IMG/VR virus record: IMGVR_UViG_3300025889_000790
Span: 1-27,059 of that record
Strand: one strand, 5' to 3'
DNA: 27,059 nt
Origin: a virus
Below the pieces are notes generated by a model. That model saw only the letters and a program-made list of their open reading frames with translations, was not told the DNA's origin and did not search any database. How positions within the stretch are numbered: the first letter of the stretch is position 1; each line of letters begins with the position of its first letter. This document shows, one piece after another, positions 16,638 through 20,713 of this stretch. A program made the translations under genes and the position numbers.

Positions 16638-17033
16638 TTAAAAGTTTAGTTCGATCTCGACCCTCGGCTCGTCTCCGTAGGTCTTCTCGGCTGAAATCAT
16701 GTGCACCTGGCTGTCATCCACATACGCTGCACCGTTCAATCCGTCCAGGATGATCTTGATCACGTTGTCGATATCCGGCTTTTTCGGCGTGATCTCGCCG
16801 CGCCTGGCTGCCTCCTGGCGTGCCCTGGGCCAGCTTTTGGGGATCGCATATACCGCCAGTATGTCCACCTGCACGTCTCTGCCGGTCGGATCCTTGATCT
16901 TTTGTCGCGCTGCCTCGCCTACCCGCTGCTCATAATCGAGCGTCGATCTCGGCGTGTATGCTCGGCCTCGAGCGAACCTGGGCCGACCCTTGGCTTTCGG
17001 CTGTCCTGGTATCGTGATGTTGACCCTACGCAT
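16638..17033 (-). CDS. rusA: RusA-like Holliday junction resolvase
   Basis: The protein has 131 residues. RusA family signatures are clear: the N-terminal IPGQPKAKGRPRFARG, and the core KKPDIDNVIKIILDGLNG followed by AYVDDSQV. Acidic residues D87, D89, D97 and D106/D107 correspond to the metal-binding set of E. coli RusA. The enzyme cuts four-way junctions symmetrically as a dimer, resolving recombination or replication intermediates before packaging. The gene starts inside the end of the upstream regulator gene (8-base overlap). It fits with the YqaJ/RecT pair on the other early operon. Confidence 0.9.
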   Translation of the reverse strand: MRRVNITIPGQPKAKGRPRFARGRAYTPRSTLDYEQRVGEAARQKIKDPTGRDVQVDILAVYAIPKSWPRARQEAARRGEITPKKPDIDNVIKIILDGLNGAAYVDDSQVHMISAEKTYGDEPRVEIELNF

Positions 17034-17229
17034 TCCTTTGCAACCAGTCGCTAACGTCCTGACTGACTGCGGGATGGCGCAACCCTTGGCGGCACAGCTC
17101 GACCACCATCGCCGCCTTGCTGATATTTTTTTCTTGCGCCTGGGCCTGAATTTCCTCGATTAAGTCCTCTGGCATACGCAAGTAGAACGACTGTAACTTA
17201 TTGTTTTCACTGGTCTTTTGGCGTCTCAT
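17026..17229 (-). CDS. Ribbon-helix-helix (Arc/CopG-type) regulator
   Basis: I chose the ATG at 17229, giving 67 residues. A longer frame starts at 17304, but its first codons would cover both divergent promoters and precede the predicted minus-strand start near 17257. Residues 11-18 (KLQSFYLRMP region) suit the DNA-contacting beta strand. Helix A is about 20-32 (EDLIEEIQAQAQ) and helix B about 36-50 (SKAAMVVELCRQGL), the usual Arc/CopG layout. Such proteins bind palindromic operators as dimers of dimers. As the first gene next to the divergent promoters it is the obvious candidate to control them. The ribosome site is weak (GGA eight bases ahead). Confidence 0.75.
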   Translation of the reverse strand: MRRQKTSENNKLQSFYLRMPEDLIEEIQAQAQEKNISKAAMVVELCRQGLRHPAVSQDVSDWLQRNA

Positions 17230-17260
17230 AAAATAATCCAAATTTTTTTGCATCAGAGGG

Positions 17261-17289
17261 TTGACTCTATCATCCGATATCGCTAATGT
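17261..17289 (+). promoter_or_regulatory. Candidate rightward early promoter
   Basis: TTGACT (17261-17266), a 17-base spacer and TAATGT (17284-17289) give a good -35 and a weak -10. Transcription would start near 17296 and read the plus-strand early operon, whose first ATG at 17332 has an AAGGAG ribosome site. The boxes overlap those of the leftward promoter, so both cannot be occupied by polymerase together. Confidence 0.5.
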
Positions 17290-17292
17290 GAA
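17264..17292 (-). promoter_or_regulatory. Candidate leftward early promoter
   Basis: Reading leftward, TTCACA (17292-17287, five of six) is 17 bases from TAGAGT (17269-17264, four of six). The start would be near 17257, in front of the ribbon-helix-helix gene, then rusA and the initiator. Its -10 overlaps the rightward -35, and its -35 overlaps the rightward -10. Confidence 0.5.
17274..17283. promoter_or_regulatory. Candidate operator, CCGATATCGC
   Basis: The perfect 8-bp palindrome CGATATCG (17275-17282) is centred between the overlapping divergent promoters. The extended 10-mer CCGATATCGC recurs in the opposite orientation at 15225-15234, in the candidate promoter of the packaging operon. 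A dimeric regulator such as the neighbouring ribbon-helix-helix protein could use both sites. Confidence 0.4.
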
Positions 17293-17331
17293 CACCGGAA
17301 TCAAGGTTAATCACAAACAAGGAGCAACAAC

Positions 17332-17907
17332 ATGAGCGCATACTTACTGGATCCCAAAGACATTGCGATGATCGCCAACGCTGCATTTCACATGACTTGC
17401 AAGCCACGCGTGTTGACTGAGTGCTGGCACAACGCCAATGACTTGGCTCGCGACCTGGCTGACGAGAACATCCGAAGCGTCGAGTATCGATACCCAGACA
17501 TGGGGCCTTGCGCTGGGATGGCTAACGCGGACTACATCTACAAGTGTGAGGTGGTCAAAGAGATCCCATACGCGACCAACCGAGACGGCGCTAAGGGCAT
17601 GTATAACCTGCTCGCGAAGTATGAGTACAACGCCTGCGAACATCCCGAGTGGCACGACAATGACGCCAACGCGGTCAAGATGCTGATCAACGTCATGATG
17701 AAAGAGGCAGCTCGCAAGATGGCCGCCCACATCAAGGAGGAAGAGGAGCATGTCGCCGACCTGGTGAAGCGGGTCGAGGAGTTACGCGGAGTGATCGCCG
17801 AGCGTGACGAGAAGATCGCCAAGCTCAAGAAGAACCTGGTCGCCAAGAACGCCAAGCTCGAAGCGGCCAAGATTGCCCTGGAAGAGAACCTCGAGCTCTT
17901 CGCCTAA
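17332..17907 (+). CDS. Early protein of unknown function with C-terminal coiled coil
   Basis: This is the first gene of the rightward early operon, 191 residues, with an AAGGAG ribosome site seven bases before ATG. The N-terminal 110 residues form a compact domain with several Cys, Tyr and Trp residues (ANDLARDLADENIRSVEYRY, then DYIYKCEVV); I do not recognise a family. Residues about 125-188 are a Lys/Glu heptad-like helix (EEEEHVADLVKRVEELRGVI onward), a likely coiled coil. The stop codon TAA directly touches the first base of the hammerhead ribozyme, so ribozyme cleavage would leave this message with a structured 3' end 51 bases past the stop. No enzyme motif is seen. Confidence 0.8.
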   Translation: MSAYLLDPKDIAMIANAAFHMTCKPRVLTECWHNANDLARDLADENIRSVEYRYPDMGPCAGMANADYIYKCEVVKEIPYATNRDGAKGMYNLLAKYEYNACEHPEWHDNDANAVKMLINVMMKEAARKMAAHIKEEEEHVADLVKRVEELRGVIAERDEKIAKLKKNLVAKNAKLEAAKIALEENLELFA

Positions 17908-17962
17908 CCCACTGACGAGGCCAGGTGATACTGGCCGAAACGCTCCAGGAGGAGCGTCTGGG
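17908..17962 (+). ncRNA. Hammerhead ribozyme, type I
   Basis: All core positions are present. Stem I is CCCA (17908-17911) with TGGG (17959-17962). The core CTGACGA (17912-17918) follows. Stem II is GGCCAG (17919-17924) with CTGGCC (17931-17936) around GTGATA. GAA (17937-17939) precedes stem III, ACGCTCC (17940-17946) with GGAGCGT (17951-17957) around AGGA, which includes the required A15.1-U16.1 pair. C17 is 17958, so self-cleavage is predicted between 17958 and 17959. All three stems pair perfectly (4, 6 and 7 bp). The open end is at stem I, hence type I. Stem I might be extended by TTCGC (17899-17903) with GCGAA (17977-17981) across an internal loop. It is transcribed with the early operon. 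Confidence 0.9.
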
Positions 17963-17985
17963 AAATCAACCAAGGAGCGAAAGAC

Positions 17986-18318
17986 ATGGGAATTAATATT
18001 GATGTTTACAGAAGAGCGGGAACGGATTGCAGCGCCAACGGAGTGAGCGCCAGGTTTGACCGAGTTTGCGTGATGAATGTCGAAGGTCCATTCGAGCCTA
18101 CCGAGGATCATCCTGGAGTGATGTTGATCGAGGGACCAAGCTGCGGCGGCAAAGGCAACCCGATCTTAGTGCCAGTCGAGTTAATCGATAGCGGTAAGTG
18201 GTATATGTTCGGCGGTAACTTTGGGCATACCAGCGACAGCCGATTCCGTGAAGCGGTCGAGGCGATGGTTCCTGGTTTTACTGGTGCGGTTAAGTTTCAC
18301 GATCGAGTCGAAGGATAG
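17986..18318 (+). CDS. Conserved early phage protein of unknown function
   Basis: The protein has 110 residues. It begins GINIDVYRRAGTDCSANGVS, continues with RFDRVCVMNVEGPFEP and has a KWYMFGGNFGHTSDSRFREA segment near the end. Proteins with this NINVYR..DC..NG.S.RFD.V...NV.GPF.P arrangement occur in many proteobacterial phages and prophages; I know of no function. The AAGGAG ribosome site is eight bases before ATG and lies 15 bases downstream of the ribozyme, so the processed message would begin with a 27-base leader carrying this site. No membrane segment is seen. Confidence 0.8.
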   Translation: MGINIDVYRRAGTDCSANGVSARFDRVCVMNVEGPFEPTEDHPGVMLIEGPSCGGKGNPILVPVELIDSGKWYMFGGNFGHTSDSRFREAVEAMVPGFTGAVKFHDRVEG

Positions 18319-18684: not shown

Positions 18685-18691
18685 GTCCGAG

Positions 18692-18708
18692 GGGGTGCGA
18701 AGCCCCCG
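18692..18708. other. Intergenic G5/C5 hairpin
   Basis: GGGGG (18692-18696) and CCCCC (18704-18708) enclose TGCGAAG, 7 bases after a stop codon. There is no U-tract on either strand, so it is not a standard terminator. It could slow 3' decay or act as a weak block between the small genes and the recombination genes. Confidence 0.4.
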
Positions 18709-18734: not shown

Positions 18735-19736
18735 ATGGCTAAACTTAGCCCCAATACCCATTTGTCTGGAAGTGTGCTTCCGGCATTCATGGGTTACTCA
18801 CCATTCAAGACACCCCAGGAGGTGCTGGCCGAGGCAATGGCTGCGCGTGATGGCATCGAGCCTGATCCCATCGACAGCTTGCAGATTGCTATCGGCAACG
18901 CGACCGAGGACGTTATCCTGGCGCGTGGCTTACGCATGATCGGCCTGGACCCTGATCGGATCTACAACCATGAGAACGGGACCGCAGCAAAGAAACACCC
19001 CGCACTCGATCTCTGGTACTCAGACGATGGCCTGATCAAGGTTGACGAGCCGTTGACCATCCGACACCAGCCCGAGCAAGGTATCAATGTGATGACCGAA
19101 AGTGGTCAGATTGACCTGTCTGGTCTCGGCGTCCTCGAGGCCAAGTTCACCACCGTATTCGAGCGAGCCGATGACCCGCCGCTGTATCGAGGACCAATCC
19201 AACTGCAAGCCGGAATGATGTGTCATGACGCCAACTTTGGCGTACTGATCACCTGCTACGGCGCTCGCAAACTGGTCGTGCATATCTTTCCACCGCATGA
19301 AACTACGCGAGCCGCCATCACCAACGCGGTCCACGAGTTCGAGCGGCACATTAGCGCGGGCACATTCCCCGAGCCAAAGAGCGCAGATGAAGCCGCTATT
19401 GCATTCAGTGAACCAGCCGAGGATGACACCATCTGCTTACCGGAAGGTGTGATACCGGCAATCGATAGCTACCTGACAGCCAAGCGTGTGATCGATGAAT
19501 ACACCAGGGAAAAGATGGCCGCCGAGCTAGAGATCATGCGATACCTGGCGAACAGCACCAAGGGTGAAGTCTATCATCCCGATCTTGGGACCACGTACAA
19601 AGTGCGCTGGCCCGTCCGACACTCGAAAGCAAAGCCAGCCGTGTGCTGTCCTAACTGTACCTACGAGTTACATCCGGCGAAGCCCGAGAGCAGTGCTCGC
19701 CAGAAAACCATCTCAATCAAAGAGGAGCAACACTAA
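18735..19736 (+). CDS. YqaJ-family (lambda-exonuclease-like) viral recombinase
   Basis: This 333-residue protein has the order of motifs expected for the YqaJ/lambda Red exonuclease family. A substrate-entry segment GSVLPAFMGYSPFKTPQEV lies at residues 12-30, and IGNATEDVI, with E58, at 53-61. The catalytic acidic pair is in WYSDDGLI (D97/D98), the E-x-K motif is LEAKF (E135, K137), and Gln residues lie in YRGPIQLQAG (151-160). It should chew 5' ends of double-stranded DNA to expose strands for the RecT partner, whose gene follows in a TAATG overlap. Near the C-terminus, VCCPNCTYELHP adds a small Cys cluster that may bind zinc, which is not part of the usual nuclease core. Confidence 0.88.
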   Translation: MAKLSPNTHLSGSVLPAFMGYSPFKTPQEVLAEAMAARDGIEPDPIDSLQIAIGNATEDVILARGLRMIGLDPDRIYNHENGTAAKKHPALDLWYSDDGLIKVDEPLTIRHQPEQGINVMTESGQIDLSGLGVLEAKFTTVFERADDPPLYRGPIQLQAGMMCHDANFGVLITCYGARKLVVHIFPPHETTRAAITNAVHEFERHISAGTFPEPKSADEAAIAFSEPAEDDTICLPEGVIPAIDSYLTAKRVIDEYTREKMAAELEIMRYLANSTKGEVYHPDLGTTYKVRWPVRHSKAKPAVCCPNCTYELHPAKPESSARQKTISIKEEQH

Positions 19737-20713
19737 TGAGCAAGTTACCATCACTCGCACCACAGAACATGACCGAGGCAATGGAGTTCAGCAAGATGAT
19801 CAGCCAGTCCGGTATGGTTCCAGGCGCCTACAAGGGCAAGCCGCAAGATGTCCTGGTCGCAATCCAATGGGGTTACGAGCTGGGTCTCCAGCCGCTCCAG
19901 GCGTTGCAGAACATTGCCGTTATCAATGGCAAGCCGAGCGTGTACGGCGATGCTGCGCTGGCCCTGGTCAAGAATGATCCGCGCTGCGCTGGCGTTAAAG
20001 AATGGATCGATGGCGATGGCGATGACCGCGTGGCTCACTGCCTGGTCAAGCGCCGGTATGCCGAGGAGATCGAGGAGACCGAGCGCACCTTCAGTGTGAC
20101 CGATGCCAAGCGCGCGAAGCTGTGGGGCCGCCAGGGACCATGGACCCAGTACGCCGACCGGATGCTGGCAATGCGAGCGCGAGGCTTTGCTTTGCGGGAT
20201 GCGTTCCCCGATGCACTCAAGGGTGTGATCACAGCAGAAGAAGCCCAGGACTACCCAGCCGAGAAGTCAGCCCCGCGTGATGTTACGCCTACGAAACCAG
20301 CTAACCCGCTTGATAACCTGCCGCCACCACCAGCGGATGATTATGAGGAATACCAGGCGATGGACGCGGAGCCTGAAGTGATCGACGTTGAGCCGGAACC
20401 AGTGCCCGAGCCAGTGCCCGAGCCAGTTCGAGAAGCAAGCCCGAGCCGCCCCGAATGGGTGGTATACCGGCACGATGGCGAGGCGTACAAGGAGGCTGAT
20501 GGTAATAGCATCTTTGTCGATGCTTACGAAACCATGATCCAGGTCTACGGCAAGAAGATGGACAAGGAGAAGACCGACCCCGCCGAGGCAGTCGCCATGC
20601 TGTACCAGATCCGCGACCGCAACAACGCGACCGTCAAGAAGCTCCAGGCGACCGACCGAGTGCGCGTGGTCAGTGTGCTGAACAAGATGATCAGCAAGTG
20701 GGAGGGCAAGTGA
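19736..20713 (+). CDS. recT: RecT-family single-strand annealing protein
   Basis: The protein has 325 residues. The first half carries RecT hallmarks: MTEAMEFSKMISQSGMVPGA, then KPQDVLVAIQWGYELGLQPL with QALQNIAVINGKPSVYGD and the ..RAKLWGRQGPWTQYADRM.. segment near residue 130. It anneals complementary strands and works with the adjacent exonuclease. After residue about 205 comes an acidic, Pro-rich linker with tandem PEPV units (encoded by a 12-bp repeat around 20392-20428). A separate C-terminal region of about 85 residues starts at EWVVYRHDG and is not part of the RecT core I know. The gene overlaps both neighbours by one to four bases. Confidence 0.9.
   Translation: MSKLPSLAPQNMTEAMEFSKMISQSGMVPGAYKGKPQDVLVAIQWGYELGLQPLQALQNIAVINGKPSVYGDAALALVKNDPRCAGVKEWIDGDGDDRVAHCLVKRRYAEEIEETERTFSVTDAKRAKLWGRQGPWTQYADRMLAMRARGFALRDAFPDALKGVITAEEAQDYPAEKSAPRDVTPTKPANPLDNLPPPPADDYEEYQAMDAEPEVIDVEPEPVPEPVPEPVREASPSRPEWVVYRHDGEAYKEADGNSIFVDAYETMIQVYGKKMDKEKTDPAEAVAMLYQIRDRNNATVKKLQATDRVRVVSVLNKMISKWEGK

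Follow-up and report, generated by a model that had tools for sequence, protein, structure and literature searches.

Sequence evidence for a type I hammerhead ribozyme between two early phage genes and for its place in a large group of phage hammerheads

By its sequence, the DNA at positions 17908-17962 (plus strand) of the window, i.e., the whole 27,059-nucleotide stretch of viral DNA analysed here, is a complete type I hammerhead ribozyme within an early phage operon, and the RNA very probably cuts the messenger that carries it into two pieces. All of the invariant positions of the hammerhead are present (C3 U4 G5 A6 N7 G8 A9, G12 A13 A14, the A15.1-U16.1 pair, and H17), and the topology is that of type I, with three helices around the core, loops closing stems II and III, and stem I left open. 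The isolated 55-mer folds exactly as a hammerhead (-26.9 kcal/mol, z -3.56), and the core pattern has a single match in the window and none in 100 shuffles. A first-pass annotation of this DNA had claimed a complete type I hammerhead with stems of 4, 6, and 7 bp, a TAA touching its first base, a cut at 17958/17959, and a 27-base leader containing AAGGAG, and on the sequence every one of these coordinates and features holds (Table 1).

Table 1. Features of the ribozyme and of the early operon around it, in window coordinates.
Feature	Position	Strand	Basis
Probable early promoter TTGACT-17-TAATGT, with palindrome CGATATCG in the spacer	17261-17289	+	sequence; inference
191-aa early protein, directly upstream of the ribozyme	17332-17907	+	ORF; relatives in L003/L147 and L159
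Stop codon TAA abutting stem I	17905-17907	+	sequence; abutment is the rule in the group
Type I hammerhead	17908-17962	+	sequence, fold, core pattern, descriptor, relatives
Stem I, 4 bp	17908-17911 (CCCA) / 17959-17962 (TGGG)	+	sequence
Core CTGACGA	17912-17918	+	sequence
Stem II, 6 bp	GGCCAG 17919-17924 / CTGGCC 17931-17936	+	loop GTGATA
Loop II pseudoknot, 5' strand UGAU	17926-17929	+	pairs with 17965-17968; covaries
Core GAA	17937-17939	+	sequence
Stem III, 7 bp	ACGCTCC 17940-17946 / GGAGCGT 17951-17957	+	sequence
C17	17958	+	sequence
Predicted self-cleavage site, C17 / U1.1	17958/17959	+	established hammerhead chemistry
Leader on the downstream mRNA after the cut, 27 nt, with AAGGAG at 17972-17977	17959-17985	+	sequence
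Loop II pseudoknot, 3' strand AUCA	17965-17968	+	sequence; 4 nt upstream of the Shine-Dalgarno site
110-aa early protein, phrog_6045 (unknown function), directly downstream	17986-18318	+	ORF, PHROG
Genes for the YqaJ/RecE-like exonuclease and the RecT-like annealing protein	18735-20713	+	ORFs, PHROG, Pfam

The Rfam covariance search that the first-pass annotation had proposed as a check did not recover the element, i.e., the window ribozyme falls below the gathering score for every Rfam model, including RF00163, RF00008, and RF02276. Its best match, itself sub-threshold, is to the RAGATH-1 hammerhead (RF03152), at 25.2 bits, where 56.3 would be needed to reach the gathering score. The two have the same core and can be aligned over stem I and the stem III region; membership in RAGATH-1 was rejected on this score. 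At gathering score, Rfam also reports no hammerhead in 20 loci that hold clear type I examples, so the gathering threshold is hardly informative on class, and Rfam thresholds miss this group of type I phage hammerheads. A descriptor requiring the core and three stems gave zero matches in reversed control sequence, in sets of 2.64 Mb and 1.3 Mb. If the element were a chance resemblance instead of a ribozyme, the failure of every Rfam model to reach its gathering score would be expected; we give this explanation almost no credence, given the empty reversed controls, the equal blindness of Rfam where hammerheads are clear, and the compensatory changes found in relatives.

Those changes in related phages, which the first-pass annotation had suggested looking for, take the form of covarying stem pairs in a set of 146 distinct phage hammerheads. 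In each of stems I-III, the four pairs nearest the core are 97-100% canonical and come in several pair types; since the descriptor demanded at least three pairs per stem, the informative part is the variety of pair types. Stem I, for instance, is CCCA/UGGG in the window and CCUG/CAGG in L150-L156.

The tertiary contact is probably a 4-bp pseudoknot between loop II and the bases just 3' of stem I. The window's UGAU/AUCA is replaced in relatives by UGAC/GUCA, UGGU/ACCA, UUGC/GCAA, and others, and among 24 distinct cases with a 6-nt loop all four pairs are found in 11, whereas 1000 shuffles of the tail gave 3.5 on average and never more than 9. Shift 0 is the best register in the same 24 cases. 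An aligner-based alignment of 24 ribozymes misplaces loop II, and for this reason the counts were scripted at fixed register. Other loop classes (GUGAGAUUC and GGAA) have no pairing between loop II and the 3' tail and may use other contacts. The first-pass annotation had instead suggested that a distal helix (17899-17903 with 17977-17981) may supply the tertiary contact, and this part of it did not stand. The complementarity is present in the window but unconserved in the group; across 140 ribozymes, the 16 nt upstream are no more complementary to the 26 nt downstream than in shuffled pairings (45 of 100 shuffles scored at least as high), and the helix was rejected as a conserved contact on these grounds.

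Pseudoknot-free folding of transcripts of different lengths gives a probability for stem I of 0.92 when the transcript ends at 17968 and of 0.09 when it ends at 17985. In the 91-nt context fold, which considers secondary structure only, the stretch from 17895 pairs with the Shine-Dalgarno region in preference to stem I. Because stem I is mostly lost in the longer transcript, folding must either come early or get help from the pseudoknot, which the model ignores, and this suggests that the cut would be favoured before the Shine-Dalgarno region is transcribed.

The ribozyme stands in a run of rightward early genes that begins at 17332 and encodes, in order, the 191-aa protein, the ribozyme, proteins of 110 aa, 64 aa, and 65 aa, the YqaJ/RecE-like exonuclease, and the RecT-like protein. 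Where the two can be aligned, the window's terminase shares 71% identity with its counterpart in MEP301, a cultured Methylophilales phage. PHROG and Pfam scans gave no match for the 191-aa protein and phrog_6045 alone for the 110-aa protein. A consensus promoter/terminator scan of the window did not report the probable promoter at 17261-17289; TTGAC and GATATCG are retained upstream of the gene for the 191-aa homologue in L003 and L159. The palindrome in this promoter is perhaps the operator of a divergent Arc-like repressor gene (17026-17304). A hairpin, GGGGG-TGCGAAG-CCCCC, lies between the 65-aa gene and YqaJ at 18690-18708, which makes it a second intercistronic structure of the same operon, and it is also found in L148.

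Relatives of the locus (80 in all) were fetched using the YqaJ proteins of the window and of MEP301 as queries. Loci with a YqaJ identity of at least 59% have one or two type I hammerheads located 360-2573 nt upstream of YqaJ, the exceptions being L149, L157, and L166, which have little or no sequence upstream of YqaJ, and L148. No type I hammerhead was found by descriptor in YqaJ relatives at 45-52% identity. A hammerhead lies behind every 191-aa homologue found, and the downstream genes are of three different kinds. Between the window and L003, the stop codon and ribozyme are identical at 58 of 58 positions, and the upstream coding region at 496 of 600 alignment columns. The 110-aa gene also has homologues in L005-L007 and L144, none of which is preceded by a hammerhead. 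Among these relatives, the ribozyme stays with the 191-aa gene while the downstream gene varies. Neither a DNA-level homologue of the locus nor a homologue of the 191-aa protein was found in named phages.

Two of the fetched loci carry a different structure at a comparable place. In L148 (YqaJ 92%), the gene located behind the ribozyme in L003 and L147 is preceded by a plain hairpin and no hammerhead, and the upstream gene differs from that of L003/L147, so the element is dispensable once the upstream gene changes. The hairpin, GGCGGC-GTAA-GCCGCC, encloses the stop codon and lies before the MAVMING gene, at roughly 380-430; it can be seen as a natural replacement of the L003 hammerhead. L168 (49% identity) has a type II hammerhead, above the Rfam threshold, between a stop codon and a Shine-Dalgarno site, and the gene downstream of it starts MSAYL, as does the 191-aa gene. 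MEP301 itself is similar to the window in having a type I hammerhead (L142:702-753), which lies between gp02 and gp03, among the first genes of the rightward run, and upstream of YqaJ and ERF. However, its stem I and stem II sequences differ from those of the window, its upstream stop is inside loop II, and its upstream protein has no detectable relation to the 191-aa protein.

The pattern CCACTGANGAG-CGAAAC-GTCTGG occurs in at least 119 IMG/VR stretches, and in 84,980 bacterial and archaeal genomes it has 15 matches, three of which pass the hammerhead descriptor. The window ribozyme is a member of a large phage group. Among the named phages examined, i.e., those near weak BLAST hits, type I hammerheads were called by descriptor in Agrobacterium phage OLIVR1, Cellulophaga phi18:3, Xanthomonas RiverRider, and Caulobacter S2B, and type II hammerheads in the stretches read of Streptomyces phages R4 (three copies) and Spernnie (eight copies), both of which are cultured and suited to tests. 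The eight in Spernnie (L231, 41.9-45.7 kb) lie between successive genes within 3.8 kb, two of them in tandem. Caulobacter phage S2B (L230), which is cultured and annotated as Autographiviridae, carries a type I together with a type III hammerhead in one region (43067-43133 and 44983-45040), and Burkholderia phage BcepC6B (L145:37709) has, by descriptor, a minus-strand type II hammerhead near gp41/gp42. On one contig (L018:596-4550), seven type I hammerheads on one strand separate small genes nearly singly within 4 kb; on another, a Twister-P5 ribozyme (L037:1199-1253) and a type I hammerhead are about 1 kb apart. A 2023 paper describes an enrichment of hammerheads near Mu-like phage genes.

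The position of these elements relative to genes is consistent. A same-strand stop before and a same-strand start after the hammerhead are found for 143 of 154 instances, compared with 33% at random positions; a Shine-Dalgarno site is recognisable for 120 of the starts, and most starts lie 14-43 nt beyond the cut. When the set is made non-redundant by keeping one case per upstream protein cluster (n=121), 69 stops end 3-8 nt ahead of C3 (3.4% at random positions), and in 23 cases the UGA of the core CUGA itself serves as the stop. The initial search pattern fixed part of stem I and left the stop free. The 297 flanking proteins fall into 202 clusters, so the element is not tied to particular genes. 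Where a downstream gene could be matched to a family, the matches include anti-restriction, Sak4, RecE/YqaJ, and AcrIC5-like proteins. One gene directly behind a hammerhead matches the anti-CRISPR AcrIC5, and another matches an ArdC-like anti-restriction family, for which the ardA of Perreault et al. offers a comparison. No published description of the stop-codon placement rule was found in the open-access literature searched.

Separation of messages by cleavage between genes is familiar from phage T7, where RNase III cuts between the early genes and yields separate mRNAs with structured 3' ends; the T7 sites work alike, but the cutter is a host enzyme and not the RNA itself, and they are no relative of the window ribozyme. 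The first-pass annotation had read the element as ribozyme processing of a phage operon, at an operon position that it took to be undescribed. Processing remains the best reading of a sense-strand ribozyme between two early genes, but the position had been described, since Perreault et al. (2011) reported hammerheads flanking single genes in prophages and proposed processing into gene-length mRNAs (PMC3088659). The window hammerhead therefore belongs to a kind already known. Such arrays were tested and were active in vitro and in E. coli, and pseudoknots were described in all three hammerhead types (PMC3088659). Like those hammerheads, the window ribozyme lies in sense orientation between adjacent phage genes, it resembles their phage and prophage type I members in core, architecture, and a pseudoknot-type contact between stems I and II, and its group is likewise intergenic in phage gene blocks, often with several members in a row. 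What differs is the host phage group, the MEP301-like phages, which is new, and the fact that its hammerheads are missed at Rfam gathering scores. HHphage also has its ribozyme in an early polycistronic phage transcript, and the mapped 5' end of that early mRNA is at most 3 nt from the hammerhead cut (PMC3088659); in contrast to the window, it is a single case, a variant that is linked to a helicase gene in a halophilic virus and is considered there in relation to high-salt hosts (PMC3088659). The theta ribozymes of gut phages are similar in being phage-encoded self-cleaving RNAs proposed to replace host RNases, but they have an HDV-like fold and a proposed role in processing tRNA 3' trailers (PMC10879173).

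We consider it probable that the window ribozyme serves intercistronic processing, i.e., that a cis-acting and probably constitutive type I hammerhead cuts the early polycistronic transcript after its first gene. The sequence speaks for this through the anatomy of the ribozyme, the covariation of the pseudoknot, the sense orientation, the abutment of the stop codon, and the persistence of the element behind its upstream gene. From these we infer cleavage in the cell, the chemistry of the ends, and an effect on stability. The upstream product would be a one-gene message, some 0.6 kb long, that encodes the 191-aa protein, and its 3' end would consist of the stop codon followed by stems II and III, as stable hairpins, and a 2',3'-cyclic phosphate. 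Such a compact end should resist 3' exonucleases, and the expectation that RNA ends of this sort withstand decay comes from what is generally known of RNase E and 3' exonucleases. The downstream product would carry the recombination operon, with the genes for the proteins of 110, 64, and 65 aa, YqaJ, and RecT, and it would start at a new 5'-hydroxyl end, followed by a short 27-nt leader that includes the Shine-Dalgarno site. The two messages would then be free to differ in stability and translation, with no need of a host RNase.

A real rival to constitutive processing is that the cut is gated by translation, with ribosomes finishing the upstream gene keeping the ribozyme unfolded, so that cleavage would await a halt in ribosome traffic or precede the first ribosomes and would act as a translation sensor. 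The stop lies against stem I or inside the core in most cases, and both the MEP301 stop (TAA, 720-722) and the end of the L159 frame fall within loop II, which means that the core itself is translated there; it is because coding sequence extends into the ribozyme in MEP301 and L159, and in about one case in five, that gating has to be taken seriously. Nevertheless, we think it unlikely, as dense packing of phage genes would yield an identical geometry and fast hammerhead cleavage can come before ribosomes arrive. The high diversity of the flanking genes, together with the absence of the element from some relatives with conserved neighbours, could also point to a neutral or selfish RNA element that moves between phages and cleaves without benefit. 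That seems improbable for an element that keeps its core intact while its stems change by compensation, that is identical over 58 of 58 positions between diverged relatives, and that shows a strong sense bias and placement between stop and Shine-Dalgarno site.

The ribozyme might also be a regulator specific to the 110-aa gene, for example by freeing its ribosome-binding site from 17895-17903, given that the Shine-Dalgarno region pairs upstream in the 91-nt fold and that the cut would part the two paired strands. We hold this to be quite improbable, however: the ribozyme keeps its upstream gene and the downstream gene differs in L003, homologues of the 110-aa gene occur with no hammerhead in front (L005-L007 and L144), and complementarity between upstream and downstream sequence is not above chance in the group. 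A gene-specific partner in general was rejected in view of the diverse flanking genes and of the 110-aa gene being found also without a hammerhead. Many contigs have at least two same-strand hammerheads around one gene or a short block (e.g., L151-L153), and pairs of this kind could excise a segment, with its 5'-hydroxyl and 2',3'-cyclic phosphate ends then joined to form a circular RNA. For the window this is very improbable, as it has a single hammerhead, and a search by Perreault et al. for spliced or circular RNAs was negative (PMC3088659). Intercistronic processing is thus the reading that we prefer for the window. As a wider and tentative suggestion, which we regard as possible but doubtful, phages may widely use a "stop codon - hammerhead - Shine-Dalgarno" cassette, compact in build, for maturation of early mRNA independent of host RNases, with the stop codon set next to or within the ribozyme so that upstream translation would gate the cut.

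To the hammerheads already described, the present analysis adds the placement rule, the assignment of the pseudoknot, the persistence of the ribozyme behind one upstream gene, the gap in Rfam, and the natural replacement of the hammerhead by a hairpin or a type II form. The role of hammerheads in prokaryotes and phages was called an open question in a 2017 review that noted the link to bacteriophages (PMC6155905), and the consistent placement found in this survey is relevant to that question. Cultured phages for functional work can now be named, i.e., MEP301, Streptomyces phages R4 and Spernnie, and Caulobacter phage S2B, and some of the genes downstream of the hammerheads are tied to early functions, namely recombination, anti-restriction, and anti-CRISPR-like activity.
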